A stretch of DNA of 64,000 nucleotides, taken from assembly GCF_013170825.1 (NCBI RefSeq), contig NZ_CP033365.1:2306001-2370000 (forward strand), in the 5' to 3' direction. The notes under the pieces are model-generated. The model was not told the DNA's origin. It saw only the letters and a list, made by a program, of their open reading frames with translations, and did not search any database. The position numbers and the translations under genes were made by a program. Positions 843-30,695 of the stretch are shown one piece after another (the stretch's first letter is position 1; each line of letters starts with the position of its first letter). The DNA comes from Mesorhizobium sp. NZP2298 (GTDB lineage: Bacteria; Pseudomonadota; Alphaproteobacteria; Rhizobiales; Rhizobiaceae).

Positions 843-856
843 TTGATCCGCATCAA
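843..856. promoter_or_regulatory. FNR/FixK-type box (perfect)
   Basis: TTGATCCGCATCAA matches TTGA-N6-TCAA exactly. It lies 75 bp after the DUF4010 stop and 56 bp before the ATG of a small interrupted ORF (913-1053), the same spacing seen at other boxes here. It is too far (335 bp) from mgtA to be its usual activator site. Confidence 0.75.
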
Positions 857-912
857 CACGCCCTAAGTGGGAGACGTTATCCTGCGGCCACGCCCGTATC
901 TGCAGGAGAGGA

Positions 913-1053
913 ATGCGCGCAATGCCGCCAGTCGATTTGGTATCTGCCAATCGCCATGTTTCGTGATCACTGACCGTATCTCATGCCGAACTAGCAGCGA
1001 CGGTCGTAGCGCGCCGTACCGCATCGCTGTCCAATGTCTATCGTCCCGGATAG
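913..1053 (+). pseudogene. short ORF with internal stop downstream of a FixK box
   Basis: An ATG at 913 has an AGGAGAGGA ribosome-binding site directly before it. The frame reads 17 codons (begins MRAMPPVDLVSANRHVS), meets TGA at 964-966, and then stays open in the same frame for 28 codons (LTVSHAELAATVVARR and on) to TAG at 1051-1053. Together that is a 47-codon frame broken by one stop. I do not recognise the family. It sits 56 bp downstream of a perfect FixK box, so it may be the decayed or very short first gene of a hypoxia-induced unit. The rest of the 423-bp gap before mgtA holds only the two boxes listed. Confidence 0.35.
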
Positions 1054-1093
1054 GCGGGCGCAAAACCCATCGGTCAAACGGCATCCGATTCCC

Positions 1094-1107
1094 CTGATGC
1101 CAGTCAA
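1094..1107. promoter_or_regulatory. FNR/FixK-type box, one mismatch, before mgtA
   Basis: CTGATGCCAGTCAA differs from TTGA-N6-TCAA only in the first base and ends 84 bp before the mgtA ATG. Position and half-site fit an activator site, but the mismatch makes it less certain than the perfect boxes nearby. Confidence 0.45.
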
Positions 1108-1191
1108 GGCGCGATCATGCCGATGCCTTCTGAATTACGCTAGATTTGTCGTTGTCTCTTATGCAGCATCATTCCGGCAGGGAACACAGAC

Positions 1192-3801
1192 ATGGATGTT
1201 CAAAGCGTCACCAACGCGTCCAAGACAGACATCTACTGGTCAAGGCCAATTGAAGACCTCTTCATCGACCTACGTGCGAGGACGACCGGCCTTTCCGAAC
1301 CGGAAGCGCTGACGCGCCTAAACGAAGTCGGTCCGAACGCAATCGGCCGTAAAGGGACTGCCACCGCGCTCGGCACATTCGCGCGACAGTTCCGCAGCCC
1401 GCTGGTGTTGATCCTCGTATTTGCGGCAATCGTCTCCGTCTTTGTCGGAGAAGGCAGCGAAGCGGTGATCATTGGTGTTATCGTCCTGGCAAGTTGTACT
1501 CTCAGCTTCACGCAGGAGTATGGCGCCTCAAAAGCGATGCAAGCGCTGACGGCGCGGATATCGCGCAAGGCGCAAGTGCTGCGCGGCGGGGTGGAAACGT
1601 CCGTTGCCGCAGAAGAGTTGGTGCCCGGCGATGTCGTAAGGCTGTCAGCAGGCAACCTTGTGCCCGCCGACGGGGTGCTCCTGGAGGCACGTGACTTCAA
1701 CGTCTCCGAATCGGCACTGACCGGCGAGACCTTCCCTGTGGTGAAGGCACCAGGCCTATCGGCGCCCGATGCCCAGATCAGCCAGCGCAACAACACCGTC
1801 TTTACCGGGACGTCGGTGCGCAGCGGCACCGCAACGATGGTCGTGGCCAGAACTGGCGACCGAACGGAGTTCGCCTCGATCGCGGCGGTCGTGGCGCGCA
1901 ACGTGCCAGAGACCGAATTCAGCCGGGGAATCCGTCGCTTCGGCTATCTGATGACCGAAATCATGCTGGTCATCGTCATATTGGTGTTCTTCGCCAATCT
2001 CCTGCTTCACCGCCCGCCGATCGACTCGCTGTTGTTTTCCCTGGCGCTCGCCGTCGGCCTGACGCCGGAACTTTTGCCCGCCATCATCAGTGTCACGCTT
2101 GCGCGCGGCGCCCGCACGATGGCGGCCAATGGAGTCATCGTGCGCCGGCTCGATGCGATCGAAAATCTCGGCAGCATGGATCTCCTTTGCACCGACAAGA
2201 CGGGAACGCTCACGGAAGGCGTCATCCATCTCGACGCCTGCAATGGCATTGACGGCGCACCGTCGCCGGATGTGCATCGCTGGGCCTTGCTCAACGCGAC
2301 GCTTCAGACCGGGATGGCCAATCCGCTGGACGAGGCGATCGCCGCCGACGCAAAGCCGGACGATCGGCTTTCCGAGTACTCCAAGGTCGACGAGATTCCG
2401 TACGACTTCATCCGTAAACGGCTCTCGGTGGTGGTGCGGGGGCCGAGCGGCAACGACCTGATGATTTGCAAGGGCGCGGTCCAGAACGTGCTCGACGTCT
2501 GCTCGTCAGTCGTGACAGGAACGGAGACCAAGCCGCTCGACGCGGCGTACCGAACCGCAATCGATAGGATGGTGCATGACTGGTGCATGCAGGGCTACCG
2601 TGTACTCGGCCTCGCCGTCCGCCACCTCGCCCGGCAGGATGCATACCGCATGGAAGACGAGACCGGATTTTCATTCGCCGGCTTTCTTCTCTTTCTCGAC
2701 CCGCCAAAGCCCGGGATGGCGGAAATACTGGAATCGCTGAAAGATCGCGGCATCGCCGTCAAGGTCATCAGTGGCGACAATCGCTACGTGGTGGCGCATC
2801 TGGCCGAAACCGTTGGACTTGGCCACAAGAACATTCTCACGGGCGAGGAACTCACCAAGCTTACAAAGGAGGCGCTGTTTGGCCGGGTGCAGAGCACGGA
2901 TCTGTTCGTTGAGATCGATCCCAACCAGAAGGAGCGGATCATAGAAGCACTGAGGCGACGCGGCCACGTCGTCGGCTATCTCGGCGACGGTATCAACGAT
3001 GCCCCTGCCTTGCATGAAGCCGATGTCGGCATCTCCGTCGACGGCGCAGTGGACGTGGCGCGCGAGGCCGCCGACATGATCCTGCTCAAGCGCGATCTCG
3101 GCGTTTTGTCGCGCGGGGTCGACGATGGGCGCGCGACCTTCGCCAACACGATGAAGTACATTTCCATCGCGACCAGTGCCAATTTCGGCAACATGGTTTC
3201 GATGGCGATCGCATCGTTGGCGCTGCCGTTCCTGCCGCTGCTCGCCCCGCAGATTCTGCTCAACAATTTTCTCGCGGACATTCCGGCGCTAGCGATCGCC
3301 ACCGACACTGTCGACCCCGACCAGACCACCAAGCCAAGGCATTGGGACATCGGCTTCGTGCGCCGCTTCATGGTCACGTTCGGCCTCATCAGCTCCGCCT
3401 TCGACTTCTTGACCTTCGGTTTCCTTCTTCTGCTGGCGAAGGCAGACCCGGCAACTTTCCAGACCAGCTGGTTCGTCGAATCGCTGGCTACCCAACTCGG
3501 CATCCTGCTCGTCATCCGTACACACAAGGCCTTCTGGCGCAGCCGCCCAAGCGCGTTGCTTTGCTGGCTGGCGCTCGGCGTGGCCGTGCTTGCCTTCGCG
3601 ACTCCCTATCTGCCTTATGCGAACTGGCTCGGCTTCGTGCCCTTGCCGCTGTCGATCATGACTGGCCTGATCATCATCACGGTGCTTTATCTGGCAGTTT
3701 CGGAAGTCACCAAATCATGGTTCTTCGCGCGGGAACGGAATCGTGGAAGACACCGGCCAAACCACAAACGCCTGCGCAGGATAAGGAAAAGCTATCGGTA
3801 G
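1192..3801 (+). CDS. mgtA: P-type Mg2+-transporting ATPase (MgtA/MgtB type)
   Basis: The 869-residue protein has the full P-type ATPase order: an N-terminal cation-ATPase segment, the first membrane pair near residues 65-105, the actuator motif SALTGETFPV, a membrane pair containing VGLTPELLPAI, the phosphorylation motif DKTGT with Asp335, the hinge GDGINDAP, and six C-terminal membrane segments. LTPELLP and LLNNFLADIPALAIATD are typical of the P3B magnesium group. It should sit in the inner membrane and import Mg2+ at the cost of ATP. The ATG at 1192 follows a GCAGGGAA ribosome-binding site. A one-mismatch FixK box lies 84 bp upstream, suggesting low-oxygen control rather than, or besides, magnesium control. 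The C-terminal tail is unusually basic (RNRGRHRPNHKRLRRIRK). Confidence 0.9.
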   Translation: MDVQSVTNASKTDIYWSRPIEDLFIDLRARTTGLSEPEALTRLNEVGPNAIGRKGTATALGTFARQFRSPLVLILVFAAIVSVFVGEGSEAVIIGVIVLASCTLSFTQEYGASKAMQALTARISRKAQVLRGGVETSVAAEELVPGDVVRLSAGNLVPADGVLLEARDFNVSESALTGETFPVVKAPGLSAPDAQISQRNNTVFTGTSVRSGTATMVVARTGDRTEFASIAAVVARNVPETEFSRGIRRFGYLMTEIMLVIVILVFFANLLLHRPPIDSLLFSLALAVGLTPELLPAIISVTLARGARTMAANGVIVRRLDAIENLGSMDLLCTDKTGTLTEGVIHLDACNGIDGAPSPDVHRWALLNATLQTGMANPLDEAIAADAKPDDRLSEYSKVDEIPYDFIRKRLSVVVRGPSGNDLMICKGAVQNVLDVCSSVVTGTETKPLDAAYRTAIDRMVHDWCMQGYRVLGLAVRHLARQDAYRMEDETGFSFAGFLLFLDPPKPGMAEILESLKDRGIAVKVISGDNRYVVAHLAETVGLGHKNILTGEELTKLTKEALFGRVQSTDLFVEIDPNQKERIIEALRRRGHVVGYLGDGINDAPALHEADVGISVDGAVDVAREAADMILLKRDLGVLSRGVDDGRATFANTMKYISIATSANFGNMVSMAIASLALPFLPLLAPQILLNNFLADIPALAIATDTVDPDQTTKPRHWDIGFVRRFMVTFGLISSAFDFLTFGFLLLLAKADPATFQTSWFVESLATQLGILLVIRTHKAFWRSRPSALLCWLALGVAVLAFATPYLPYANWLGFVPLPLSIMTGLIIITVLYLAVSEVTKSWFFARERNRGRHRPNHKRLRRIRKSYR

Positions 3802-3888: not shown

Positions 3889-4929
3889 TCAAGCCGCTTC
3901 GATGATGACCTTGAGAGCATGGGTCTTCGCCGCGCTTCCGAACGTTTCGTAGGCATCCAGGATCTGATCGAGCTTGAAGCGGTGCGTGATCAGCTTCGAC
4001 GGATCGATCTTGCCTGAACGAACCGTCTTGAGCAGCATCGGCGTGGTGACGGTGTCCACCAGCCGCGTGGTGATGGCGATGTTCTGTGACCACAGTTTTT
4101 CGAGATGCAGGTCCACCTTGGTGCCGTGGACGCCGATATTGGCGATCGTGCCGCCGGGCGCGACGATTTCCTGGCACAGTTCGAATGTGGGTGGAATTCC
4201 GACTGCCTCGATCGCCGCATCGACACCACGTCCACCGGTAAGGGCAAGTACCTGCCGTTTGGCCTCTTCGCCGCTCGCCTTCACGGTCTGCGTGGCACCG
4301 AAGCGCCTTGCGGTCTCCAGCCGGTTCTCATCGAGGTCGACCATGATGATCTCGGCCGGCGAGTAGAACTGTGCCGTAAGCAATGCGGCAAGTCCGATCG
4401 GTCCGGAACCGACGATGGCGACCGTCGCGCCGGGCTCCACCTTGCCGTTGAGCACGCCGCATTCGAAGCCGGTCGGCAATATGTCGCTCAGCATCACCAG
4501 AGCTTCTTCATCGGCTCCTTCCGGGATCGGGTAGAGGCTGGTGTCTGCATGGGGGATGCGCACATATTCGGCCTGCGTGCCATCGATCGTGTTGCCGAGT
4601 ATCCAACCGCCTGTCGTGCAGTGGGAATACATGCCTTTCCGGCAATATTCGCATTTGCCGCATGCCGAGATGCAGGAGATCAGGACATGGTCGCCCTTCT
4701 TGAACTGGGTCACTCCGGCGCCAACCTCTTCAACGATACCGACGCCTTCGTGGCCAAGAATGCGGCCGGGCGTGCAGGTGGGCACATCGCCTTTCAGGAT
4801 ATGGAGGTCGGTACCGCAGATCGTGGTCTTGGTGACCTTTACGATCGCGTCGGTCGCGGCATTGATTCCAGGCACCGGGCGTTCCTCAAGGGATTTCTTC
4901 CCCGGTCCTTCATAAACGAGCGCTTTCAT
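3889..4929 (-). CDS. zinc-dependent alcohol dehydrogenase family protein
   Basis: The 346-residue protein is a medium-chain zinc dehydrogenase: catalytic-zinc ligands Cys38 (ICGTD) and the GHE motif, structural-zinc cysteines in CGKCEYCRKGMYSHC, and the NAD(P) fold GSGPIGLAAL. It should oxidise an alcohol or reduce an aldehyde or ketone with NAD(P)H in the cytoplasm; it resembles bacterial secondary-alcohol (isopropanol-type) dehydrogenases, but the substrate cannot be read from the sequence. The start ATG at 4929 lies 64 bp from a perfect FixK box, so induction under oxygen limitation is likely, which fits disposal of reducing power when respiration slows. It is not in an operon with the second dehydrogenase, which starts beyond the box. 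Confidence 0.85.
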   Translation of the reverse strand: MKALVYEGPGKKSLEERPVPGINAATDAIVKVTKTTICGTDLHILKGDVPTCTPGRILGHEGVGIVEEVGAGVTQFKKGDHVLISCISACGKCEYCRKGMYSHCTTGGWILGNTIDGTQAEYVRIPHADTSLYPIPEGADEEALVMLSDILPTGFECGVLNGKVEPGATVAIVGSGPIGLAALLTAQFYSPAEIIMVDLDENRLETARRFGATQTVKASGEEAKRQVLALTGGRGVDAAIEAVGIPPTFELCQEIVAPGGTIANIGVHGTKVDLHLEKLWSQNIAITTRLVDTVTTPMLLKTVRSGKIDPSKLITHRFKLDQILDAYETFGSAAKTHALKVIIEAA

Positions 4930-4993: not shown

Positions 4994-5007
4994 TTGACCT
5001 CGGTCAA
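4994..5007. promoter_or_regulatory. FNR/FixK-type box (perfect)
   Basis: TTGACCTCGGTCAA is an exact TTGA-N6-TCAA palindrome 64 bp before the minus-strand alcohol dehydrogenase start at 4929. The rest of the 188-bp gap to the next gene shows nothing else. Confidence 0.8.
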
Positions 5008-5117: not shown

Positions 5118-6110
5118 TCAATCGGCTTGCGGTACCAGCACCGCCGCGCCGCTCAGCCGGCCGGCGCGCAGGTCGGCAAGCGCCTCATTGGCACGATCGA
5201 GCGGATAGATCGTGGTGTACGTCTTCACTCCGGCTTTCTTCGCAATCGGAAAAAATTCCTCGGCGTCGTGTCGTGTCAGGTTGGCGACCGACATCAGGTG
5301 CCGCTCCTCCCACAGGATCGAGTATGGCATCCGGGGAATGTCGCTCATGTGGATTCCGCCGCAAACCACCACGCCGCCCTTGCGCACCCCACGCAAAGCC
5401 GCCGGGACGAGTTCGCCGACTGGCGCAAATATGATCGCGGTGTCGAGCGGAACGGGAGGCATCTGGTCGGAGCCCCCGACCCATACGGCGCCCAGGCTCT
5501 TGGCGAAATGCTGCGCCTCGACATCGCCAGCCCGCGTGAAGGCATAGACGTCGCGCCCCTGCCAGGCGCAGACCTGCGCGATGATGTGGGCGGCAGCGCC
5601 AAAGCCGTAGAGGCCGATCCGCTTTCCGTCCCCAGCCTTCTTCAGCGAGCGCCAACCGATCAGGCCGGCGCACAGCAAAGGCGCCTGTGCGACCGCACCG
5701 GCATCCTGATCGAGATCGAAAGTGAAGGCCGCATCGGCGACGACATGGGTCGCAAAACCGCCGTCTCGCGTATAGCCGGTGAAAAGCGGGCGATCGCAAA
5801 GGTTCTCCGCGTCGGATCGACAATAGGGACACTCGCCGCACGTGTGGCCGAGCCATGGGATGCCGGCCCGGCGGCCGATCCTTGCCCTGTCGACGCCTTC
5901 GCCCACCATATCGATGATGCCGACGATCTCGTGACCTGGCACTAGCGGCAGCTTCGGATGATCGAGATCGCCGTCCACGACATGAAGGTCGGTGCGGCAT
6001 ACGGCGCAGGCTTCCACCTTGAGCCTGATGTCACCCGGCCCAGGCACAGGATCGGGCCGCTCCATAAACACCAGAGGCCGTCCGATCGCCGTAAGCACCA
6101 TCGCCTTCAT
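5118..6110 (-). CDS. zinc-binding alcohol dehydrogenase (AdhP-like)
   Basis: The 330-residue medium-chain dehydrogenase has AVCRTDLHVV and PGHEIVG for the catalytic zinc, the four-cysteine structural-zinc loop CGECPYCRSDAENLC, and a nucleotide-binding segment GLYGFGAAAH that replaces the usual GxGGxG. The motif GYTRDGGFATHV is typical of the zinc-binding alcohol dehydrogenase subfamily found in hypoxia clusters of rhizobia. The start is ATG 6110, although the frame is open further upstream, because homology begins at MKAMVL. It follows the BON gene on the same strand after 71 bp, so the two probably share the promoter at 6912. Substrate unknown; alcohol or aldehyde turnover under low oxygen is inferred. 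Confidence 0.82.
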   Translation of the reverse strand: MKAMVLTAIGRPLVFMERPDPVPGPGDIRLKVEACAVCRTDLHVVDGDLDHPKLPLVPGHEIVGIIDMVGEGVDRARIGRRAGIPWLGHTCGECPYCRSDAENLCDRPLFTGYTRDGGFATHVVADAAFTFDLDQDAGAVAQAPLLCAGLIGWRSLKKAGDGKRIGLYGFGAAAHIIAQVCAWQGRDVYAFTRAGDVEAQHFAKSLGAVWVGGSDQMPPVPLDTAIIFAPVGELVPAALRGVRKGGVVVCGGIHMSDIPRMPYSILWEERHLMSVANLTRHDAEEFFPIAKKAGVKTYTTIYPLDRANEALADLRAGRLSGAAVLVPQAD

Positions 6111-6181: not shown

Positions 6182-6832
6182 TCAGCCAATGGTGAGCCGG
6201 TCGTCCACCATGTTGACGCCCGGTGCCGCCCAAGCAGCACGCGAGGCAGCGCTCCGCTCGGACCAGTCATGGACGTGACCTTCCAGCGTGACCTTGCCGC
6301 CGTCGAGCACCTTCACCCGGATCGCCTGCGCCTCGACCTCGGCACTACGCTTCAGCGCTCCCTCGATCCGCTGCTTGACGTCGAAAGCGGAAGCATGCGC
6401 CTTGACCGAAATGTCGTTCTGAACGCCGATCACACCAGCCAGATCGCGGATCGCATCGGCGGCAGCCATCTTCTGGTACTGCCACTCGACCTTACCGGTC
6501 AACGTCACCCAGCCCTTCTGGACTTTCACCTGGACGGCATCGTCAGGTACGGATGTATTCCAGTCGATCGAGTTGATGGCGCGCTTGGCGATTTCGTCAT
6601 CGGCCGTGCGGTTGGTGCCAAACGGGCGGACCTCGATCTCCTCGGCGATGCCCTTGACGCCTTTCACGCGGCGAACGACGTCCTCGACCGTGCTCTTTTG
6701 CGCATAGGTCGGAACATGGCCTGTCAGCGTGACCACGCCGCTCGCGACAGCAACCCCGATATCGGCCGCATCAATGCTGGGCTCGAAGTCGAGTTCATCG
6801 ATGATGTCCTGCTTCAAAGTGCTGTCGTCCAT
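6182..6832 (-). CDS. BON-domain protein with three BON repeats
   Basis: The 216-residue protein consists of three consecutive BON domains (about residues 5-70, 78-145 and 148-215), each with the pattern V-x-V-x-x-G-x-V-T-L-x-G-x-V (for example VASGVVTLTGHV, VQKGWVTLTGKV and VLDGGKVTLEGHV). BON domains bind phospholipid surfaces and occur in OsmY-like stress proteins. No signal peptide is visible, so unlike OsmY this one is probably cytoplasmic. It is the first gene of a two-gene unit with the downstream dehydrogenase and is divergent from cytochrome b561; a perfect FixK box lies 79 bp upstream. Its role is likely envelope or general stress protection under hypoxia (inference). Confidence 0.85.
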   Translation of the reverse strand: MDDSTLKQDIIDELDFEPSIDAADIGVAVASGVVTLTGHVPTYAQKSTVEDVVRRVKGVKGIAEEIEVRPFGTNRTADDEIAKRAINSIDWNTSVPDDAVQVKVQKGWVTLTGKVEWQYQKMAAADAIRDLAGVIGVQNDISVKAHASAFDVKQRIEGALKRSAEVEAQAIRVKVLDGGKVTLEGHVHDWSERSAASRAAWAAPGVNMVDDRLTIG

Positions 6833-6911: not shown

Positions 6912-6925
6912 TTGATCCGTGTCAA
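6912..6925. promoter_or_regulatory. FNR/FixK-type box (perfect), divergent promoter
   Basis: TTGATCCGTGTCAA lies in the 162-bp gap between the divergent BON (start 6832) and cytochrome b561 (start 6995) genes, 79 and 69 bp from their starts, so it can serve both. Confidence 0.8.
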
Positions 6926-6994: not shown

Positions 6995-7489
6995 ATGTCG
7001 ATTCAGGCAAGGCAGGGATACACCGCAACCCAGATCGGGCTGCATTGGATCATTGCGGCGATCGTGATCTTTCAACTGGTCTTCGGGGAGTCGATGAACT
7101 TCGTCGTCCGCGCAATCGAGAGAGGCACTGTGCCCACACCTTCCGAACAGCTCTGGGGCGACCTGCATTACTGGGCCGGATGGGCGATCCTGGGGCTGGT
7201 GGCGATCAGGCTGGCGATCCGCCTTTCGATTGGCGCGCCGGCATCCATTCAGCGTGGCTGGATGGATGTCGCCGCGCAGGCAAGCCACACGGCCTTCTAC
7301 GTAATGCTGGTGGCGATGCCAGTCCTCGGCCTGCTGGGTTACTATCTCGGCGACCCTTGGGCCGATATCCATACATGGGGCAAGCCCGTCTTCATCGTTC
7401 TGATCGGTCTGCATGCCTGCGCGGCACTTTATCACCAATTCTGGCTGAAGGATGGGACGTTACGGCGGATTCTCGTTCCAACCGCCTGA
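6995..7489 (+). CDS. cytochrome b561 family protein
   Basis: The 164-residue membrane protein has four hydrophobic segments and the family pattern of haem-ligating histidines: His in QIGLHWIIAA near residue 17, His in GDLHYWAGW, and His in GLHACAALYHQF near the C-terminus. Such proteins are inner-membrane di-haem cytochromes that pass electrons between quinol and an acceptor or quench superoxide. ATG 6995 has AGGAGAGTGAAA before it and is preferred over the in-frame start at 6974. The gene stands alone and shares a divergent FixK box with the BON unit. The insert after the first helix (MNFVVRAIERGTVPTPSEQ) is somewhat longer than in CybB, as I recall it. Confidence 0.85.
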   Translation: MSIQARQGYTATQIGLHWIIAAIVIFQLVFGESMNFVVRAIERGTVPTPSEQLWGDLHYWAGWAILGLVAIRLAIRLSIGAPASIQRGWMDVAAQASHTAFYVMLVAMPVLGLLGYYLGDPWADIHTWGKPVFIVLIGLHACAALYHQFWLKDGTLRRILVPTA

Positions 7490-7538: not shown

Positions 7539-8627
7539 TCACGCTTGGGCCGTTCCCTGGGGTGATGTGGCGCCTGTCGGCATCGCCTTCATTTCCCTCC
7601 GGATCAGCCACAGACCCGGCAGCATCGGAAGCCAGAGCGTAAAACCGCGCAGAATGAGCGTTGCTGCAAGGCTGGTTTCGAGGCCGCCTCCCAGAAGGTG
7701 GAGCATGCCGACGCATGTTCCTTCGAACGTGCCGAGCCCCAACGGGATGGGCGACAACGTGGCTACCACCGAAGCCAACACGAAGCTCATGAAGGCACTT
7801 GCCGGGGAAAGCGCCAGACCCACGGCGTGGCCGGCACACCAGAGCGTCGCCGCATCGAGCAGGAAAACCGCACACTGGAAGACGACAGCCTCGAAAACCA
7901 CGCGGCCGTCACGAATGGTATCAAGGCGAACCTGGCGAAGCAGGGCGGAGAACCTGATGGCTGGCTGCCAACGCAGCACCGCGTGGGGAATGAACCGCCC
8001 ACGCGAACGGGTCACCGCCAGCACCGCCCCGGCAAGCAGCACCACGACCGCCACGAAGGCGATGGAGAGCGAGAGCCATGCCCCGCTAAGATCACCGAAA
8101 TGCCACAGCAGGACGAACGCGGACAGACCGGCCAGCAGATAGGCCGTATAATAGGAGAGGCCCGCAACCAGAAGCGCCGTGATCGCCGCTGGCGATCCAA
8201 CGCCGCGCCGCACGAGACCGCGAATGACCATGATGCTGCCGCTCACCCCGCCGCTCGGAAGAGCTTGATTGGCGAAGAGCTCGACCAGCGCCAGGCTGAG
8301 CAGGCTGGTCAATGGCCGCGCAGCTCCTGTCCGGCGCAGGACGCACCACCATACGCCGGCGGCACAGCCATAGGTCGCGAGTTGACAGAGCGCCGCGGCG
8401 GCAAGCCAGAGCGGATCCGCCCGACGCAGCGTCGTCAGAAATGTCTCGAAGTCACCGAAATGAAGGATGAAGGTAACGAGGCCAGCAAGGACCAACAGCC
8501 CGGCGCCCCATCCCGCCATCATCCCCAATGTGGCATGGGGATGATCGGGCAGGTTGACAAGAACTGCCTCGGGCGAAGGCGTTACGCCTTCGCTTGTTGA
8601 AGCTGACCGCGAGACGTCAGCCACCAT
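7539..8627 (-). CDS. COG0392 / lysylphosphatidylglycerol-synthase-type integral membrane protein
   Basis: The 362-residue protein has about eight membrane segments and the family motif ALPSGGVSGS, with a C-terminal block PLGLGTFEGTCVGMLHLLG that is characteristic of the UPF0104/COG0392 family, the membrane (flippase-like) half of MprF. No aminoacyl-transferase domain is attached, so lipid aminoacylation is not implied; lipid flipping or another envelope role is possible. The start ATG 8627 overlaps the last 11 bases of the ftsH reading frame, which points to translational coupling. A perfect 9-bp stem-loop (8573-8593) falls 12 codons after the start. Expression should follow the ftsH promoter with its FixK box at 10546. 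Confidence 0.75.
   Translation of the reverse strand: MVADVSRSASTSEGVTPSPEAVLVNLPDHPHATLGMMAGWGAGLLVLAGLVTFILHFGDFETFLTTLRRADPLWLAAAALCQLATYGCAAGVWWCVLRRTGAARPLTSLLSLALVELFANQALPSGGVSGSIMVIRGLVRRGVGSPAAITALLVAGLSYYTAYLLAGLSAFVLLWHFGDLSGAWLSLSIAFVAVVVLLAGAVLAVTRSRGRFIPHAVLRWQPAIRFSALLRQVRLDTIRDGRVVFEAVVFQCAVFLLDAATLWCAGHAVGLALSPASAFMSFVLASVVATLSPIPLGLGTFEGTCVGMLHLLGGGLETSLAATLILRGFTLWLPMLPGLWLIRREMKAMPTGATSPQGTAQA
8573..8593. repeat. perfect 9-bp stem-loop inside 5' coding region
   Basis: GCGAAGGCG-TTA-CGCCTTCGC is a perfect inverted repeat within codons 12-19 of the COG0392 gene. It could slow early translation or be a small dispersed palindrome; no second copy was noticed in the window. Confidence 0.5.
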
Positions 8628-14052: not shown

Positions 14053-14062
14053 CTCGGACCGG

Positions 14063-19872: not shown

Positions 19873-19873
19873 G

Positions 19874-22971: not shown

Positions 22972-24534
22972 ATGTCGAGTCACCAGGAAATCGAGCTTAA
23001 GTTGGAACTGCCACTGGCATCGTTCCCATCCATAGAGAACGTTCCAATGGTGCGGCAGGCAGCGGAAGCAGCCGAGACGAAGCAGCTCAATTCCGTCTAC
23101 TTCGATACGGATAAATCCAAACTGCGGAAGGCTGGCATATCACTTCGTGTTCGCTCCGACGGACGGCACCATATCCAGACAGTCAAGTGCGAGCACAGCT
23201 CTTCTCCAGACCTCACCACGCGAGGCGAGTGGGAAACCGAGATAGAGGGAACGATACCCGATCTCGACGCGGCCGGCGATACGGCTCTGAAACCACTGCT
23301 GTCAAAGAAGTTTGCCCGGGCACTGAAACCGGTCTTCCAGACCCAAACCGAACGAAAGACGCTCCCCATCAAGACCGCTCATGCCACCATGGAACTCGCG
23401 CTTGACCACGGCCAGATCGTGACCGGCAATAAGACCGAAGCGATTTGCGAGATCGAGATCGAGCTCAAGCAGGGAGATCGCACGGAACTGTTCAAGTTGG
23501 CCCGGTCGCTCGCGAACGCTGCGCCATTGCGGCTTTCAGTCCGCAGTAAGGCGGAGCGCGGATATGAATTGATCGATGACGAACCTGCGCAAGCGGCTCT
23601 CGCTGGGAAAATCACACTTCAGTCCGGCACGGACGTCACGGCAGCTTTTCGGCAAATTGCGGAATCCTGCCTCCGTCAGATCACCGCCAATTGGGAGGCG
23701 GTAAATCGTGGCGATCCGGAAGGCGTTCACCAGATGCGCGTCGGGCTCCGGCGATTACTCGCTGCTATTTCGCTCTTTTCACAGATGCTCGGCGACCGGC
23801 AAAGCGCCCTGATCAAGACGGAGCTGAAATGGCTCGCTGATGAGCTCGCTCAAGCGAGAGAACTCCACGTCTTCTCGGCTGGCATCCTCGCACGCCTGCG
23901 GAAGGCATACGCTGGCGACGATGCTTTCAAGGTTTTCGATGGAGAGGTCGGCCGGCTTCGGGCGCAAGCAGAAGCCCGAGCACGCACGGCTATCGAGACC
24001 GATAGGTTCCGCAATCTGCTTCTTGACACGGCTGAATGGATCCAAGCCGGAGACTGGATAATATCGGATGACGCATTGCGTGGCAGTCTCAAGGATCACA
24101 ACATCGACGACTTTGCCCGCCAAGCGCTTTCATCACGAACCTCGAAGATCGTAAAGCGGAGCAGGAAGCTAGACGACCTTGATGCTCGCCAGCGGCACAA
24201 GCTGCGTATCGCGGCAAAAAAACTTCGCTATGGCAGCGAATTCTTCCAGAGCCTTTTCCAGAGCGAAACCTCAAAGAGACACCAGGCAAAATTTCTGCGC
24301 ATCCTGGAGCGCCTGCAGGACCATCTCGGCAATCTCAACGACATTGTCGGACATACTCAGTTGTGCAGATCGATGGTCGAGGACACATCGTCCGCAGCAA
24401 ATCCAAATGCCCGGCAGATTGCGTTCTTTGCAGGGGTCGTCTCGGGCACCGAAGCAGCGCGAAGTGAGAAGCTTGTGCGATCAAGCACTCATATTCATGA
24501 CAAACTCGGCAAGGCAAAGCCATTCTGGGACTGA
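22972..24534 (+). CDS. CYTH and CHAD domain protein
   Basis: The 520-residue protein has an N-terminal CYTH domain (about 4-200) with the EIELKLEL signature and the tunnel-fold residues SVYFDTDKSKLRKAGISLRVR, and a C-terminal CHAD domain (about 225-510) rich in conserved His and Arg, such as VHQMRVGLRRLLAAI, ELAQARELHVF and RHKLRIAAKKLRYGSEFF. CYTH enzymes hydrolyse triphosphate or polyphosphate in a metal-dependent manner; CHAD domains bind polyphosphate. The fusion is therefore probably a polyphosphate- or triphosphate-directed enzyme, acting in the cytoplasm or on granules. Start ATG 22972 follows AGGGAGACG; no FixK box was found in front of it, unlike most neighbours. Confidence 0.88.
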   Translation: MSSHQEIELKLELPLASFPSIENVPMVRQAAEAAETKQLNSVYFDTDKSKLRKAGISLRVRSDGRHHIQTVKCEHSSSPDLTTRGEWETEIEGTIPDLDAAGDTALKPLLSKKFARALKPVFQTQTERKTLPIKTAHATMELALDHGQIVTGNKTEAICEIEIELKQGDRTELFKLARSLANAAPLRLSVRSKAERGYELIDDEPAQAALAGKITLQSGTDVTAAFRQIAESCLRQITANWEAVNRGDPEGVHQMRVGLRRLLAAISLFSQMLGDRQSALIKTELKWLADELAQARELHVFSAGILARLRKAYAGDDAFKVFDGEVGRLRAQAEARARTAIETDRFRNLLLDTAEWIQAGDWIISDDALRGSLKDHNIDDFARQALSSRTSKIVKRSRKLDDLDARQRHKLRIAAKKLRYGSEFFQSLFQSETSKRHQAKFLRILERLQDHLGNLNDIVGHTQLCRSMVEDTSSAANPNARQIAFFAGVVSGTEAARSEKLVRSSTHIHDKLGKAKPFWD

Positions 24535-24554: not shown

Positions 24555-25073
24555 TCAGGCGGTTCCCAGTTTCTTCGAAACGAGCAAAAGCGTGGGGTCA
24601 TCCGGATATGAATGGACGGTAAACCCCATGTTTTTCTCCAACTCGATCGCGTCGTGACTGGCTCGGCTCTCGATCGATTCAATCACCTTCAACCCCCATC
24701 TTTCAGCTTGACCGACCACGAAGGCGAGCATTTCCCAACCAATTCCATGATCCCTGTAGTCGGCGCGGATCGAAATTGCGACCTCACCACGGCCGCTCGT
24801 GCCTTCCCGTGCCAGCATGGCCGTGGCAACCGGAGTATGATTGTCTTCGAGAAAGCCGATATAGGTTTCTACCGTGCGATGGTCGACGTGGGTCATTTCA
24901 TGGATCTGCTCCGGCGGCACTTGCCTCATGCCTGCCAAGAAACGGAAGTGCAAATCTTCTAGGCGCACGTGATGAAATAGCTCATCAAGGATTGCATCGT
25001 CATCCGCGCCCGCCGGCCGCACGATAATATTGAGCCCCGTACGGGAAATAAGTTTCCAGGTGTGACCAGCCAT
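24555..25073 (-). CDS. GNAT family acetyltransferase
   Basis: The 172-residue protein shows the GNAT fold: an N-terminal strand with IVRPAGADDDAILDELFHHV, RFLAGMRQVP, a central strand AISIRADYRDHGIGWEMLAFVVGQAERWGL in which R-DHGIG replaces the usual acetyl-CoA loop Q/R-x-x-G-x-G, and a C-terminal HDAIELEKNMGF. The N-terminal RP-x-x-x-D-D-x-x-L-x-x-x-F-x-x-x-x-x-x-x-x-x-RF pattern recalls the acetyltransferase domain of Pat-type protein lysine acetyltransferases, so a protein substrate is possible. It is convergent with the CYTH-CHAD gene (20-bp gap). A FixK2-type box (one variant base) lies 66 bp upstream of ATG 25073. Confidence 0.8.
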   Translation of the reverse strand: MAGHTWKLISRTGLNIIVRPAGADDDAILDELFHHVRLEDLHFRFLAGMRQVPPEQIHEMTHVDHRTVETYIGFLEDNHTPVATAMLAREGTSGRGEVAISIRADYRDHGIGWEMLAFVVGQAERWGLKVIESIESRASHDAIELEKNMGFTVHSYPDDPTLLLVSKKLGTA

Positions 25074-25139: not shown

Positions 25140-25153
25140 TTGAGCTAGCGCAA
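25140..25153. promoter_or_regulatory. FixK-type box (TTGA-N6-GCAA) before the GNAT gene
   Basis: TTGAGCTAGCGCAA fits TTG(A/C)-N6-(T/G)CAA and starts 66 bp upstream of the minus-strand GNAT start. It is part of a 524-bp gap that otherwise holds the perfect box at 25338 and a small ORF. Confidence 0.5.
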
Positions 25154-25337: not shown

Positions 25338-25351
25338 TTGATCCGGCTCAA
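25338..25351. promoter_or_regulatory. FNR/FixK-type box (perfect) upstream of the protease unit
   Basis: TTGATCCGGCTCAA is an exact match. It is 246 bp from the protease start but 55 bp from the ATG of the small ORF at 25407, the spacing typical of this region. Confidence 0.75.
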
Positions 25352-25406: not shown

Positions 25407-25601
25407 ATGAAAAGCGCGCCAGAACCTGCACAGCCGCCTGAACGACAGGGGATCAAAGCTGGAGCACGCGGTTGGCAAAGATCGACGAATCGCAAGTTGG
25501 CGTCGCGGTCGTTTCCAGCAAGGGCAACTTCGGTTGATCTTGGGCAGGAATCAGCGCTTGCCGAAAATGCGTGTCTCCGTGACGATGACATGGATCGATG
25601 A
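25407..25601 (+). CDS. small hypothetical ORF overlapping the protease start
   Basis: This 64-codon frame begins at an ATG with AGGGG four bases upstream, 55 bp after a perfect FixK box, and its TGA overlaps the ATG of the protease gene (ATGA), as in translationally coupled pairs. The product (MKSAPEPAQPPERQGIKAGA and on) is polar and resembles nothing I know. Position argues for translation; composition does not. It may be an untranslated leader instead. Confidence 0.3.
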   Translation: MKSAPEPAQPPERQGIKAGARGWQRSTNRKLASRSFPARATSVDLGQESALAENACLRDDDMDR

Positions 25602-26983
25602 TGATCACTTTCTCTCTACGCATATTAGTGACGGTCGTGTGGTTCGCCCTTTCGGTTGCGTCGATGACATGCCCCGTAAAGGCAGCGTTCTCATTTGTTC
25701 CAACGACCCAAGCCTCGCTCGCTCCAATGCTCGAACGGGTCCTTCCAACCGTCGTTAGCATCGTGGTGCAAGGCCAGAATGGATCGCCTCCAGACACAAA
25801 TGCCTCGGATTCCCTGCCCCAACAATTCTCCGCTCTTTCCGGGGATGCCGGACAACAACGCGGGTTCGTCGCGGCAGGTGCCGGCGTCATCATCGATGCC
25901 GCGAATGGATACATCCTCACCAACAACCATGTCATCCAGAATGGGGACACAATCGAAGTCATCCTCAATGACGGCCGCACCTTCCAGGCTCAGCTCGTCG
26001 GAAACGATGCCGAAACAGATCTCGCCGTCATAAAGATCGCGGCCGACCATCTGACGGCACTGCCTTTCGGAGATTCTTCAAAACTCCGCGTCGGCGATTA
26101 TGTCGTCGCGATTGGCAATCCGTTTGGGTTAGGGCAAACGGCGACGATGGGTATCGTCAGCGCACTAGGCCGGTCAGGACTGGGAAGCGGCTACGAAAAT
26201 TATGTCCAGACCGATGCCTCGATCAACCCAGGCAATTCGGGCGGCCCCCTCGTCGGCCTCGATGGTAAACTCGTCGGAATCAGCAGCGCGATCATCGGGC
26301 CAAACGGTGGAAATGTCGGCATCGGCTTTGCCATTCCGGCCGCGATGGCAAAACAGATAACGGAACAGCTTGTTGCCTACGGTGAGGTACGACGCGTGCA
26401 GCTCGGGGTGGTGGTGCAGGATCTTACGCCGAATCTCGCCAAGGCGTTTCGTATCGACATACAATCGGGAGCTGTTGTGAACCAGATTTTGTCAGGTTCA
26501 GTGGCTGAAGGGGCTGGTGTTGCTGTGGGTGACATCATCACCGCGATAAACGGAGCAAGCGTGGAAAATGCGGCTCGTCTCAAGAACATCATGAGCGCGA
26601 TGTCGCCGGATACTTCCGCGAAGTTGTCGATGATCCGTCACGGCAGTCCATTGACCATTACGGCTAGACTTTCCATGGAGGGAAACGCTCGCCAGACGCA
26701 GATCGCGGGGGTGGGTCATCTCGACTCAGTCATCCTCAGCGATTTCGAGACGATATCGGGAATGGGAAACAAAAAGGCGGACGGAGCCCTGGTTCTGGCG
26801 GTGGGAGAAGACAGCGGAGCGGCTGATGCCGGTCTGGCGGCGGACGACGTGATCCTGAGCGTCAATCAGCAGGTCGTTCATTCGCCAGAAGAAGTATTGG
26901 AGCTGGTACATCAATCTCCCTCCGGCTCTCTACTGCTCGGTATCTATCGTGACGGAGGCATGTATTTCCTGGCCATCCAGTGA
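25598..26983 (+). CDS. DegP/DegQ-like periplasmic serine protease with two PDZ domains
   Basis: The 461-residue protein starts with a signal peptide (ITFSLRILVTVVWFALSVAS, cleavage probably near VKAAFS). The trypsin-like domain has the triad His111 (TNNHVI), Asp141 (ETDLAV) and Ser214 (GNSGGP). Two PDZ domains follow (about 270-360 with RRVQLGVVVQDL and VGDIITAINGASVEN, and about 370-460 with ADDVILSVNQQV). It should degrade or refold misfolded periplasmic proteins. The start is the first of two ATGs at 25598, overlapping the stop of the small ORF upstream. A perfect FixK box lies 246 bp upstream. The exact Deg subtype cannot be settled. Confidence 0.88.
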   Translation: MMITFSLRILVTVVWFALSVASMTCPVKAAFSFVPTTQASLAPMLERVLPTVVSIVVQGQNGSPPDTNASDSLPQQFSALSGDAGQQRGFVAAGAGVIIDAANGYILTNNHVIQNGDTIEVILNDGRTFQAQLVGNDAETDLAVIKIAADHLTALPFGDSSKLRVGDYVVAIGNPFGLGQTATMGIVSALGRSGLGSGYENYVQTDASINPGNSGGPLVGLDGKLVGISSAIIGPNGGNVGIGFAIPAAMAKQITEQLVAYGEVRRVQLGVVVQDLTPNLAKAFRIDIQSGAVVNQILSGSVAEGAGVAVGDIITAINGASVENAARLKNIMSAMSPDTSAKLSMIRHGSPLTITARLSMEGNARQTQIAGVGHLDSVILSDFETISGMGNKKADGALVLAVGEDSGAADAGLAADDVILSVNQQVVHSPEEVLELVHQSPSGSLLLGIYRDGGMYFLAIQ

Positions 26984-27348: not shown

Positions 27349-27362
27349 TTGACTTGGCGCAA
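27349..27362. promoter_or_regulatory. FixK-type box (TTGA-N6-GCAA) before the HlyD/MacB operon
   Basis: TTGACTTGGCGCAA fits TTG(A/C)-N6-(T/G)CAA and ends 57 bp before the HlyD start at 27420. Confidence 0.55.
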
Positions 27363-27419
27363 GGTGACAGGCGTGCGCCAAGTCTACTGGAGGAGTGCGC
27401 TGCTTTCCTCGGAGCCGTC

Positions 27420-28691
27420 ATGTTACAAACCAATACTGACCTGCACCCAGCCACATCGCGCAAATCCCGCCTGTCCGCTGCGGGGCATTTTGCCTGGGTC
27501 CATAAATGGTCGCTGGCGACACTTTTTGTGCTGGCGGTCGCAATTGCCTTGGCGCTTGCGCGCTGGCTGGTGGGTCCCGAAGTCGTCGTCTATCCCGTGG
27601 TCCGCGGCGATCTCGTGAAAACCGTCGTCGCCAGCGGCCATGTGGAGACGCCTTACCGCGTCGATATCGGGAGCCAGATCACCGGCACGGTAGAGGACGT
27701 GCTGGTCGACGAAGGACAAACCGTCAAGCAGGGGCAGCCGCTCATTGCCCTCGAACCCACGGAGCTCAAGGCTGCGATGGTCGAAGCGCAAGGCGCCGTC
27801 GCGCAGGCCGATGCGCGAATGCGGCAGATACGCGAACTCACCTTGCCGGCGGCCCAGGAGGCATTGAAGCAGGCGCGCGCCACACTCGTCAACGCGGAGG
27901 CAGCCTTCCAGAGGGCGGATCAGCTTTCCAGGACAGGCTTCGGCACCCAGGCGACCCTCGACGCTGCTACGAAGGATCTTGACGTCGCACATACGCAGGT
28001 CCGCACCGCGGAGTTGGAAGTCTACACCTCGCAGCCCGACGGCAGCGACTATGTGATGGCGCAAACGCAACTAGGGCAGGCGCAGGCCAATCTTGCGACC
28101 GCGCAGGCCCGCCTCGCCTATGCCACCATCAGATCACCTCGAGACGGGGTTCTCATAACCCGCAATGTCGAGCGCGGCGCCGTTGTCCAGCCAGGAAACG
28201 CGCTTCTTGTGCTTGCGCCCGCCGGCAACATCCAATTGGTGCTTCAGATCGACGAGAAGAATCTCGGCCTGCTTGAAATGGGACAGGCGGCGATAGCGTC
28301 GGCGGATGCCTATCCCAACCAGCGTTTCGATGCCGAGGTATCGTACATCAACCCATCTGTCGACATCGCGCGCGCATCTATCGAGGTGAAACTCACGGTC
28401 ACAAAGCCCCCGACCTACTTGCGCCAGGACATGACAGTGTCAGTGGACATCAGCGTCGACAAGCGTACGTCAACACTCATTGTTCCGGCTCGAGTGGTGC
28501 ATGATCCCACATCTGCGTCACCTTGGGTTCTTGTGGTTCGCAATGGCCGGCCGAGCGAACAGGCAGTCCGGACCGGCCTTCGGGCAAGTGACCAAGTCGA
28601 GATACTGGACGGTCTTTCGCAGGGCGACCTTGTCGTCCCGGTTGCCGCGGGTGTCAGAGCGGGCCAGCGTATCAGACCGGTGACGCCGTGA
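27420..28691 (+). CDS. efflux RND/ABC periplasmic adaptor subunit (MacA-like)
   Basis: The 423-residue protein has a signal anchor (SLATLFVLAVAIALALARWL), a lipoyl half VETPYRVDIGSQITGTVEDVLVDEGQTVKQGQPLIALE, a long helical hairpin (about 95-215), the second lipoyl half YATIRSPRDGVLITRNVERGAVVQPGN and a beta-barrel plus membrane-proximal domain ending GLSQGDLVV. It is the first gene of a three-gene unit with a MacB-like permease and an ABC ATPase, all overlapping, so it should be the periplasmic adaptor of a MacAB-type exporter. Start ATG 27420 follows GGAGCCGTC. A FixK2-type box lies 57 bp upstream. No TolC homologue is in the window. Confidence 0.88.
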   Translation: MLQTNTDLHPATSRKSRLSAAGHFAWVHKWSLATLFVLAVAIALALARWLVGPEVVVYPVVRGDLVKTVVASGHVETPYRVDIGSQITGTVEDVLVDEGQTVKQGQPLIALEPTELKAAMVEAQGAVAQADARMRQIRELTLPAAQEALKQARATLVNAEAAFQRADQLSRTGFGTQATLDAATKDLDVAHTQVRTAELEVYTSQPDGSDYVMAQTQLGQAQANLATAQARLAYATIRSPRDGVLITRNVERGAVVQPGNALLVLAPAGNIQLVLQIDEKNLGLLEMGQAAIASADAYPNQRFDAEVSYINPSVDIARASIEVKLTVTKPPTYLRQDMTVSVDISVDKRTSTLIVPARVVHDPTSASPWVLVVRNGRPSEQAVRTGLRASDQVEILDGLSQGDLVVPVAAGVRAGQRIRPVTP

Positions 28692-29917
28692 AGCGCTGGC
28701 TGACATTCGCCTGGATCGCGGCACTCAGGTTCCTGGCCGAAGGACGGATGCAGACGGGCTTTATCCTTAGCGGCATTGCCATCGGCGTTGGCGTGATCGT
28801 GTTCATGTCAGCCATGCTTACCAGTGTCCAGACCAATTTCACCAACCGGGTGCTCACCTCGCAGCCGCAGATCCAAATCGTGCCGCCCGATGAAGTCGCC
28901 CGGCCGCTAAGGCTGCACGACGATGGGGTGATCGAGGCGGCCATCGTGCAGCGGCCGACGCAGCGCATCCTGTCTGTCGATCAGTGGCAGACGATCCTTG
29001 CGACGATGCGGTCGCGCCAGGACGTGGTCATCGCGTCACCCACCGTGTCGGGCTCAGCTCTTGCGGTGCGGGGCGATGCCAGCCGCAGCATCAGCATCCT
29101 TGGGATGGAACCGGACGACTACTTCCGCATCGTGCGCGTCCCAGACTACATCACCGTCGGTGATTCCAGCCTTGGCTCCGACGATATCCTTGTCGGCGTC
29201 GATCTCGCCAACGACCTTGGGGCGACGGTCGGCGACAAGCTCAACGTGACCACGGCCGCGGGTGGCAGCCGCATCCTGACCATCCAAGGCATCTTCGACC
29301 TCGGCAGCAAAGGAGCGAATGAGCGCAACACCTATGTCGCGCTGCGAACAGCGCAAAGCCTGCTTGACCTGATCGGCGGCGTGACGACGATCGACCTAAC
29401 CGTCACCGACGTCTATGCGGCCGAGACCGTCGCGCAAGATATCCAAGCCACCCTTCCCATTGAGGCTGACAGCTGGATCAAAACCAACGCCCAGTTCTTC
29501 ACCGCCATCAGCGCCCAGAACCTCTCCAGTACGCTCATTCGCCTCTTCGTAGGCTTGTCGGTCGCATTCGGTATCGCGGCCGTGCTCGTGGTGTCGGTCC
29601 TCCAGCGTTCGAAGGACATCGGCATCCTGCGCGCCATGGGAAGTTCGCGCGGACAGATCCTGAGGATATTCCTCATCCAGGGTGGCGTGCTCGGCTTCCT
29701 CGGCTCGCTCGTCGGTTCCGTCCTCGGCGCTGCCGCACTGCTGGTTTGGCATCGCTATGCCCGCCAGGCTAACGGTTCGGAGTTGTTCCCTCTCGTGATC
29801 GAGCCAAGTCTCTTCTTATCATCGGCAGCACTTGCCACACTCACCGGCGTTGTAGCGGGAATTGTGCCGGCGCTGCGCGCCGCAAGCCTCGATCCGGTGG
29901 AGGCGATCCGTGGCTGA
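28688..29917 (+). CDS. ABC transporter permease of the FtsX/MacB/LolC type
   Basis: The 409-residue protein has one N-terminal membrane helix ([20 protein letters not shown]), a large periplasmic core domain of about 230 residues, and three C-terminal helices starting at [38 protein letters not shown], the FtsX signature. Its end, LDPVEAIRG, is typical of the group. Unlike MacB the ATPase is a separate gene, which follows directly. The start is GTG 28688, overlapping the HlyD stop (GTGA), and the stop overlaps the start of the ATPase gene. It should transmit ATP-driven movement to the periplasmic adaptor for export of an unknown lipid, peptide or drug. Confidence 0.87.
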
Positions 29918-30641
29918 TCTGCTTGCCCTCGAAGGCATTCGCAAGTCCTTCAACGTCGGCACGCCCGTCGAGACCGAAGTGCTCCACGGTATCGACCTTG
30001 CCATGCGCGCGGGAGAATTTGTGGCATTGATGGGCCCGTCCGGCTCCGGCAAGAGCACGCTTCTCAATATCATAGGGCTGCTCGACCGCCCGACTTCCGG
30101 CCGCCTGTCAATTGCGGGCGAAGACACGACGCGGCTTTCGGAGGCATCATTGACCCACCTGCGTGGCCACGCCATCGGCTTTGTCTTCCAGTACCACTAT
30201 TTGATCTCAGCCTTCACCGCGCATGAAAATGTGATGATGCCGATGCTTGTCGACCATGGCCGGCCTGACGCGACGATGGCGCGACGCGCCGACGAACTCC
30301 TCGACCAGGTCGGCCTTGGGCGTTGGCGCGACAATCGGGCGATGAACATGTCCGGCGGCCAGCAGCAGCGCGTCGCCATTGCCCGCGCCCTGGTGATGAA
30401 CCCTTCGCTGGTGCTCGCCGATGAACCAACGGGCAATCTCGATACCGTCTCGGCCGACGGCGTCTTCGAGTTGATGCGGCGGTTCAACAGGGAGCGTGGG
30501 ACGACCTTCTTGATTGTCACACACAACCATGATCTCGCCGACCGTTGCGATCGCATGATCGAAGTCATCGACGGCCAGATTACCCAGGATCATGACAATC
30601 CGGGCGAAAAGGAGGCTACGCTGACGCAACCGTCTCCTTGA
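29910..30641 (+). CDS. ABC transporter ATP-binding protein (LolD/MacB-ATPase type)
   Basis: The 243-residue ATPase has Walker [10 protein letters not shown], a Q-loop in [18 protein letters not shown], signature [15 protein letters not shown], Walker [13 protein letters not shown] and the H-loop THNHD. The pattern VFQxxxLxxxxTxxEN with ADEPTGNLD is that of the LolD/FtsE/MacB class. It pairs with the FtsX-type permease, whose stop it overlaps. GTG 29910 is taken as start because homology begins at [10 protein letters not shown]; the longer frame from 29862 lies inside the permease gene. It is the last gene of the MacAB-like operon. Confidence 0.88.
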
Positions 30642-30681
30642 AGTCAGGCGGATGGCGAGCATGTTGTCGAAATTGCGCGCT

Positions 30682-30695
30682 TTGCGGTCGGTCAA
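30682..30695. promoter_or_regulatory. FixK-type box (TTGC-N6-TCAA) before uspA
   Basis: TTGCGGTCGGTCAA fits TTG(A/C)-N6-(T/G)CAA and ends 54 bp before the GTG at 30750, or 114 bp before the ATG at 30810. Confidence 0.5.

Follow-up and report, generated by a model that had tools for sequence, protein, structure and literature searches.

Does an oxygen sensor encoded among its apparent target genes govern them through a regulator of its own, or through one encoded elsewhere in the genome? The question is raised by a locus of Mesorhizobium sp. NZP2298 (NZ_CP033365.1, 2306001-2370000, forward strand; this whole stretch of 64,000 nucleotides is referred to as the window, and positions are those of the window unless marked as genome positions), in which fixL and fixJ genes lie among palindromes of the form TTGA-N6-TCAA to the left of a tRNA-Met gene. 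The host genome is a single contig of 7,336,816 bases. A sequence-only reading of the window had proposed a 30-kb FixK/FNR-type regulon carrying its own oxygen sensor. That the window carries a FixK/FNR-type regulon cluster is strongly supported at the level of DNA sequence, by the density of the sites, their intergenic position, their agreement with a published consensus, their spacing to -10 elements and their partial positional conservation. The cluster is probably an accessory island for survival at low oxygen, situated in a variable segment next to tRNA-Met, and its heme-type FixL probably feeds the core fixK of the genome.

Number and clustering of the boxes

Seven exact TTGA-N6-TCAA palindromes were found in the window, at the positions given in the sequence-only reading and nowhere else, while dinucleotide shuffles, used as the background for exact sites in the window, averaged 0.57 sites with a maximum of 3. 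The spacers of the seven were all different. For the genome and its relatives the reversed pattern served as the control; genome-wide, 95 distinct exact sites were found in 7.34 Mb, compared with 20 for the control. Three dense clusters of 11, 8 and 13 sites were identified, with the remaining 63 sites scattered: cluster A, to which the window's sites belong (genome 2294541-2331351, 11 sites over 36.8 kb), cluster B (genome 4188601-4198688, 8 sites in 10 kb) and cluster C (genome 7092283-7138477, 13 sites). When 95 sites were placed at random, no 36.8 kb stretch ever held more than 7 (2000 trials), which bears out the local enrichment implied by the earlier reading. The extent of 30 kb proposed there is too short, because cluster A starts 11.5 kb to the left of the window.

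Using a matrix trained without cluster A (scores in bits, with Markov sequence as background), nine sites of at least 12 bits were observed to the left of the tRNA gene and none to its right, with 1.55 expected. The earlier statement that no sites lie to the right of the tRNA gene holds for exact sites, but the degenerate FixK2-type pattern has matches there at 38039, 42524 and 52929, the second of which scores 8.9 bits. Although some of the 95 genomic sites are surely background, as the 20 control matches indicate, an origin of the palindromes by chance or as a dispersed repeat is effectively refuted by their density and by the intergenic bias and -10 spacing described below, is further contradicted by the differing spacers, and is given a negligible probability.

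Evidence for promoter function

Sites were pooled from clusters A-C, 20 congener regions (22.8-40 kb) and 80 fixL loci of named relatives; genes were called with our own gene caller. It was found that 370 of the 382 pooled sites lay outside called genes, even though the coding fraction was 0.807. In 375 pairs of box and gene, in which the box was oriented by a gene start at a distance of 40-200 bp, the second base after the box was G in 70%, and the motif TANNNT began 22 or 23 bases past the box in 38 and 13 pairs, respectively, compared with at most 4 pairs at any other offset. If the first T of TANNNT is placed at -12, the box would be centred on -40.5 or -41.5, as class II activation predicts. 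The sequence-only reading had asked whether boxes centre near -41.5; the pooled sites and their -10 spacing agree with this, but the window's promoters taken singly show no clear -10. The claim that most boxes end 53-85 bp from a start codon is correct for five of the seven exact boxes (4994, 6912, 10546, 15283 and 21820), but not for those at 843 and 25338 (246-335 bp from the nearest start), with starts taken from our own gene caller or from open reading frames. The TTGA-N6-TCAA core falls within the published FnrN/FixK consensus, TTGANCNNGATCAANG (PMC4999443).

Positional conservation was assessed by counting congener homologues with an exact box within 300 bp (reversed control 0/384 genes). 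Such a box was present for 116 of 384 genes matching the three clusters compared with 37 of 294 others, including the arginine-operon permease (4/4), Hsp20 (4/4), FixN (6/7) and HemA (6/7). Among orthologues, an exact box lay upstream of BON in 8/10 and of ftsH in 7/7 (2/3 for each in the separate congener-region count). Relatives also back some of the weak boxes, with an exact box before 5/7 exporter orthologues, around the start of 8/15 Usp orthologues, and at 67 bp from the single GNAT orthologue found (66 bp here). The 80 fixL loci held 234 exact sites in 1.47 Mb, compared with 6 for the reversed pattern. Box density around fixL is thus high in the pooled loci; gene order differs among the congener regions looked at.

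A fixK promoter without fixK

Seventy fixL loci whose downstream sequence extends for 4 kb or more were surveyed, and in 52 of them fixK followed fixLJ within 4 kb. A FixJ-type site, defined as having at most 3 mismatches to the Sinorhizobium meliloti site before fixK (TAAGTAATTTCCCTTA; PMC4999443), was found in 21 of the 70 loci, all 21 of which have fixK; the reversed motif, used as the control, was found in none. In the window, such a site occurs at 13366, at a distance downstream of fixL (1.17 kb) that matches the nearest relatives, but no fixK is found there. A scan of 21 pieces of the genome (the window and L001-L020; 464 kb out of 7.34 Mb) ranked two sites closest to that of S. meliloti: this one and one at genome 7101505, 89 bp before the sole fixK found. 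The window leader is identical to that fixK promoter at 46 of 58 bases, and positions 13427-13456 match the beginning of fixK in the relative L021 with 87% identity over 30 bases (E value 0.014). Homology of the leader to the nearest relatives, L021 and L022, covers the ribosome site and the start codon (ATG at 13452) and then ends. Past this point, tblastn searches for a fixK remnant gave only chance-level pieces (best E value 0.66) and blastn likewise gave none, so that the FixJ-type site and leader of a fixK locus are present and the gene itself is absent. The relic ATG opens a frame of 503 codons (13452-14963, + strand) that crosses the flavin reductase gene in another reading frame and is probably meaningless at such base composition. 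The flavin reductase (start 13519) has a paralogue in cluster C, at genome 7137915, which shares 68% identity with it and has exact boxes upstream.

No CRP/FNR gene was found anywhere in the window by profile search (150 of 218 candidates scored), by a search with FixK (27 of 27 scored) or by tblastn. The only FixK found in the genome is encoded at 7101594 (7.10 Mb), 4.8 Mb from the window and 29 kb from the core fixLJ genes; in the whole-genome search with FixK (27 of 27 candidates scored) the next best protein was 40% identical. The assignment of the protein at 7101594 as FixK also draws on the position beside fixLJ in relatives and on the absence of a cysteine cluster. That this gene is the island's fixK in a new location was considered and rejected: the protein has 92% identity to the core-type FixK found in the congener G048 and 68-74% identity to FixK encoded beside island-type FixL in other genomes, the exception being 81% identity to that of G005, whose gene lies some 17 kb from an island-type fixL.

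The co-occurrence of fixL, fixJ, a FixT-like gene and seven exact boxes, together with the presence of fixK in so many related loci (52/70), would suit a self-contained regulon with its own sensor and its own regulator. For this genome such an arrangement is contradicted by the lack of a CRP/FNR match in the window, by a fixK remnant reduced to leader and ATG, and by sites that extend beyond the left edge of the window and into two further clusters; it is considered highly improbable. The cluster is not self-contained, because no CRP/FNR gene was found in the window and the only FixK found is encoded at 7.10 Mb, and for the same reason the island sensor presumably acts through the core fixK. 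The sequence-only reading was right in recognising an oxygen sensor, to the extent that the sequence is that of a FixL-type heme kinase, but the unit is larger than proposed, is not self-contained and shares the genome with a second fixLJ pair.

The proposed circuit is as follows. At low oxygen, the island FixL would phosphorylate the island FixJ. FixJ would then have two targets: the core fixK at 7.10 Mb, in front of which a FixJ-type site is found, and, by direct action, the relic fixK promoter at 13366, behind which the flavin reductase gene now lies. FixK, helped by an FnrN of the iron-sulfur type, would bind TTGA-N6-TCAA boxes centred near -41 and so switch on fermentation (phosphoketolase and acetate kinase, arginine deiminase), magnesium uptake, exporters, proteases and stress proteins, while the FixT-like protein, under a box of its own, may damp FixL. 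More tentatively, and with a probability well short of even, the island may have been rewired, in that fixK was lost, the flavin reductase gene came under direct FixJ control, and the membrane-type and core FixL proteins converge on a single FixK. If this were true, the host's low-oxygen regulon as a whole would be retuned by an oxygen sensor that it had acquired, and an intermediate step of circuit rewiring would be on view, the gene gone and its promoter kept. On the preferred reading, members of a regulon are kept together as an accessory block with their own sensor while apparently depending on a distant core regulator, and the accessory FixL is predicted to move the oxygen threshold at which core genes such as fixNOQP respond.

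The FixL-type sensor and the FixT-like protein

The island FixL has PAS, HisKA and HATPase domains with a FixJ gene adjacent, and a DUF4118 membrane part just under the cut-off (25.7 compared with 28.4). Its PAS domain aligns without gaps with FixL heme domains; His196 is the heme histidine, and the position of Arg216 corresponds in the alignment to an alanine of the mutant structure entry 1y28. We take His200 and Arg220 to be the reference counterparts of these two residues. The best relatives in named genomes are from Mesorhizobium (76-79% identity) and Shinella (76%). The core FixL (genome 7131415-7132530) is 56% identical to the island protein and lacks its membrane part. Island-type FixL (at least 70% identity) was found in 10 of 61 genomes, the present one included, and core-type FixL (55-58%) in 38 of 61.

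The FixT-like gene lies beside fixLJ under a FixK-type box. A homologue occupies the same place in 38 of 70 fixL loci, and a degenerate box precedes 12 of 12 orthologues, being exact in one. The box set had been said to cover both ftsH and fixLJ. The box at 10546 most likely serves ftsH, with which it is conserved, rather than fixL: a box-driven loop on fixL was considered weak, because an exact box is rarely kept with the island fixL (1/10 congener regions) or with fixL in the 80 loci of relatives (18/80). For the core fixL an exact box was found upstream in 9 of 10 congener regions.

The segment beside tRNA-Met

The tRNA side of the island was compared in 29 fetched loci, out of 60 matched congeners, using sensitive BLAST. 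In 20 of the 29 loci, DNA shared with congeners starts at 32054, the 3' end of tRNA-Met; in 6 it extends up to 9 bases beyond this to the left, and in the remaining 3 it starts at 32027, 32026 and 31985. The 1.5 kb to the left of the tRNA gene, searched alone, gave no detectable shared DNA in the 29 congeners. In 18 of 20 congener flanks (19-20 kb), no stretch longer than 150 bp was shared at an E value of 1e-20 with genome 2266-2390 kb; of the other two, the first has 5.4 kb in common with the left flank, and the second has 2.3 kb of that flank as well as 154 bp at the tRNA gene. Flanking markers, read by hand, occur in the same order within 150 kb in 7 congeners, with a gap of 0.4-147 kb compared with 66.6 kb here; in other genomes they lie on other contigs, further apart or in another order, or were unmatched. 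The DNA to the left of tRNA-Met differs among most of the 20 congeners, marking this as a hypervariable site of the genus.

An edge at a tRNA 3' end is what an integrative element would leave. The term variable segment is preferred here because no tyrosine integrase (PF00589) was found in the region and no repeat of the tRNA end was found in the genome. Foreign origin was not argued from codon use, which is weak evidence of transfer since the core cluster C is unusual too. It is conceivable, but unlikely, that this is instead a core regulon whose genes have been co-located since ancestral times, with no horizontal acquisition and with the boundary at the tRNA gene produced by local rearrangement. 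The clustering of boxes around fixL in many members of the order (234 exact sites as opposed to 6 reversed, as above), the shared gene families and the lack of a PF00589 integrase or tRNA repeat would fit such a history, whereas the confinement of island-type FixL to 10 of 61 genomes, the distance of 0.47-3.6 Mb between FixL and this tRNA gene in the 3 of the other nine genomes that have both on one contig (in the other 6 they lie on different contigs) and the fact that none of the 29 congeners shares detectable DNA with the 1.5 kb beside the tRNA gene speak against it.

Results that do not fit, and the choice of regulator

A number of results weigh against an island under FixLJ and FixK control. 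Of the six near matches to the box reported earlier, those at 12921 (15.1 bits) and 1094 (12.3 bits) score well, but those at 16027, 25140, 27349 and 30682 reach only 7.5-8.6 bits, a chance level at which Markov background gives 8-10 sites per 64 kb. The pooled sites include homologues and are not independent. Exact boxes are absent or few before congener homologues of mgtA (0/6), phosphoketolase (0/3), acetate kinase (1/3), dehydrogenase 2 (1/4), DegP (0/1), Usp (0/2), the island fixL (1/10) and MacA (0/1, with 1/1 for MacA-like orthologues in one other survey). No FixJ-type site at 3 or fewer mismatches was seen in 31 of the 52 loci with fixK, for which reason the motif is regarded as loose. 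Several proteins miss the cut-offs of the NCBI models: the island FixL scores 523 bits with a cut-off of 850 (the core FixL also falls short, at 566), hence the name FixL-type; the FixT-like protein scores 26 of 150 bits with NF051882, hence FixT-like; FixK at 7101594 scores 188 of 300 bits with a Caulobacter-type model, which is nevertheless its best match; and the FnrN-like protein scores 186 of 300 with the FnrL model. The region holds no PF00589 tyrosine integrase (11 lie elsewhere in the genome; other recombinase families were not searched), a 24-base pattern for the tRNA 3' end, with up to 2 mismatches allowed, matched at only one place in the genome, and the unusual codon use extends to the core cluster C.

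The genome also encodes other candidate readers of the boxes. Cluster C contains a FixN-type oxidase, a copper nitrite-reductase-type gene, FixK, an FnrN-like protein with a cysteine cluster (genome 7111301-7111831) and the second FixL/FixJ pair, with hemN, hemA and the rest of a fixNOQP-GHIS run recognised by eye. By eye, too, an NnrR-like protein was named at genome 7103609 and a second FNR-type protein at genome 2608756, near cydAB-like genes. The boxes might thus be read mainly by the iron-sulfur protein FnrN or by a nitric oxide regulator of the NnrR/DNR type, with FixLJ incidental or confined to the flavin reductase gene. The presence of these proteins and the nearly identical sites of the FixK, FnrN and NnrR-type families (PMC4999443, PMC2908626) are in keeping with this possibility, but a number of these gene families also appear in FixK regulons linked to FixLJ (PMC2908626, Table 1), and the regulators are not separable from sequence; we regard it as somewhat unlikely and retain FixK as the proposed principal regulator. 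Cluster B contains Hsp20, GroEL, BON, CBS and Nramp-like genes, together with Usp-like genes named by eye. One full-length match to PF00142, NifH or a relative, lies at genome 6950724.

Gene content of cluster A

The features of cluster A within the window are listed in Table 1. To the left of the window, phosphoketolase and acetate kinase genes flank a box at genome 2294541, and a box at genome 2300688 is followed by an operon of permease, arginine deiminase, ornithine carbamoyltransferase and carbamate-kinase-type genes. Overall, the predicted gene content of the cluster reads as fermentation and stress survival without oxygen. The FtsH-type gene is split into products of 506 and 114 amino acids, while each of three homologues from congeners is encoded in one frame of 606-612 amino acids; a recent frameshift or an error in the sequence would account for the split. 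A tRNA-Ala(cgc) called by ARAGORN at 56714-56782 (+ strand) lies within a called gene on the opposite strand and is probably a false call.

Table 1. Boxes, genes and other features of cluster A in the window, with the tRNA gene at the right-hand boundary of the segment
Feature	Position	Strand	Remarks
Exact box TTGATCCGCATCAA	843-856		335 bp before magnesium-type P-ATPase; 20.2 bits
Near box, 1 mismatch	1094-1107		84 bp before P-ATPase start; 12.3 bits
Magnesium-type P-type ATPase (MgtA-like)	1192-3801	+	TIGR01524, 749 bits, cut-off 611
Zinc-type alcohol dehydrogenase 1	3889-4929	-	PF08240/PF00107
Exact box	4994-5007		64 bp before dehydrogenase 1
Zinc-binding alcohol dehydrogenase 2	5118-6110	-	TIGR02822, over cut-off
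BON-domain protein	6182-6832	-	PF04972, 3 stretches
Exact box	6912-6925		Common to BON (79 bp) and cytochrome b561 (69 bp)
Cytochrome b561	6995-7489	+	PF01292
FtsH-type protease, two reading frames (8958-10478, 8617-8961)	8617-10478	-	506 and 114 amino acids
Exact box	10546-10559		67 bp before ftsH, 117 bp before fixL
FixL-type membrane heme-PAS histidine kinase (His196, Arg216)	10677-12197	+	
FixJ response regulator	12187-12813	+	NF006900, 307 bits, cut-off 255
Near box TTGATCTGTAGCAA	12921-12934		73 bp before FixT-like gene; 15.1 bits
FixT-like degenerate receiver	13008-13394	+	Weak NF051882 match
FixJ-type site TAAGTAGATACCCTTA	13366-13381	+	3 mismatches to S. meliloti fixK site
fixK leader relic (promoter, ribosome site, ATG 13452; gene absent)	13382-13456	+	
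Flavin-reductase-domain gene behind fixK promoter	13519-14052	+	PF01613
Nitroreductase-family protein	14678-15229	-	PF00881
Exact box	15283-15296		Common to nitroreductase (53 bp) and 15353 gene (56 bp)
YflT-like stress protein, weak match	15353-16027	+	PF11181, below cut-off
Degenerate box	16027-16040		155 bp before exporter; 8.6 bits, chance level
HlyD / RbbA-type ABC / ABC-2 permease exporter operon	16196-20995	+	
Exact box	21820-21833		Common to 21105-21761 (-) (58 bp) and Bax-inhibitor gene (60 bp)
Bax1-I family membrane protein	21894-22619	+	PF01027
CYTH-CHAD protein	22972-24534	+	PF01928, PF05235
GNAT acetyltransferase	24555-25073	-	PF00583
Degenerate box	25140-25153		66 bp before GNAT; 7.5 bits, chance level
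Exact box	25338-25351		Between GNAT (264 bp) and Deg protease (246 bp)
Do/DegP-type protease	25598-26983	+	TIGR02037, just over cut-off
Degenerate box	27349-27362		165 bp before MacA-like gene; 8.4 bits, chance level
MacA/MacB-type exporter operon	27528-30641	+	
Degenerate box	30682-30695		54 bp before Usp reading frame; 8.5 bits, chance level
Universal stress protein	30750-31670	+	PF00582
tRNA-Met (CAT)	32054-32130	-	

Comparison with known systems

The clustering of low-oxygen genes near fixLJ is of a known kind: it occurs in the FixK regulon of Rhodopseudomonas and may be compared with the lxa locus of Burkholderia. The FixK regulon, best defined in the Bradyrhizobiaceae, includes FixL, FixJ, an HlyD/ABC exporter, Hsp20, phosphoketolase, CBS and zinc alcohol dehydrogenase (PMC2908626), and FixK sites before fixLJ have been reported (PMC4999443). 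In Rhodopseudomonas palustris, RPA4235-4239 (in part), RPA4249, RPA1672 and RPA1673 are FixK-dependent and, as in cluster A, fixLJ and families of FixK targets are neighbours by locus number (RPA4235-4239, RPA4249) (PMC2908626). Unlike the Bradyrhizobium FixK2 and R. palustris systems, the present cluster lacks fixK beside fixLJ, is bounded by tRNA-Met and lies outside the Bradyrhizobiaceae, and its membrane-type FixL is additional to a core FixL.

The lxa locus of Burkholderia cenocepacia is a contiguous low-oxygen cluster of 50 genes with six universal stress proteins, for which, as here, the FixK/Anr-type regulator is encoded elsewhere (PMC6127331). The two belong to different lineages, and co-expression was measured for lxa and is inferred for cluster A; a sensor kinase within the locus is not mentioned in the portions of the lxa report consulted (PMC6127331), whereas cluster A has a FixL-type kinase. 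Among elements of Mesorhizobium, tRNA-Met is a documented integration site (PMC9973854, PMC8627217); the present segment likewise adjoins a tRNA-Met gene, and differs in that no PF00589 integrase or direct repeat was found.

The cluster is also like the fixLJ-fixK-fixT system of S. meliloti in its FixL, FixJ, FixT-like receiver and FixJ-type site, and unlike it in that a flavin reductase gene replaces fixK behind the fixK promoter. S. meliloti itself has a membrane FixL and a FixT circuit. In the literature searched (titles and abstract openings, with most subscription journals outside the scope), no fixK promoter left without its fixK was reported. Within that literature, what is new here is a variant of the fixLJ locus that has no fixK and has kept its FixJ-type promoter, at an address bounded by a tRNA gene.

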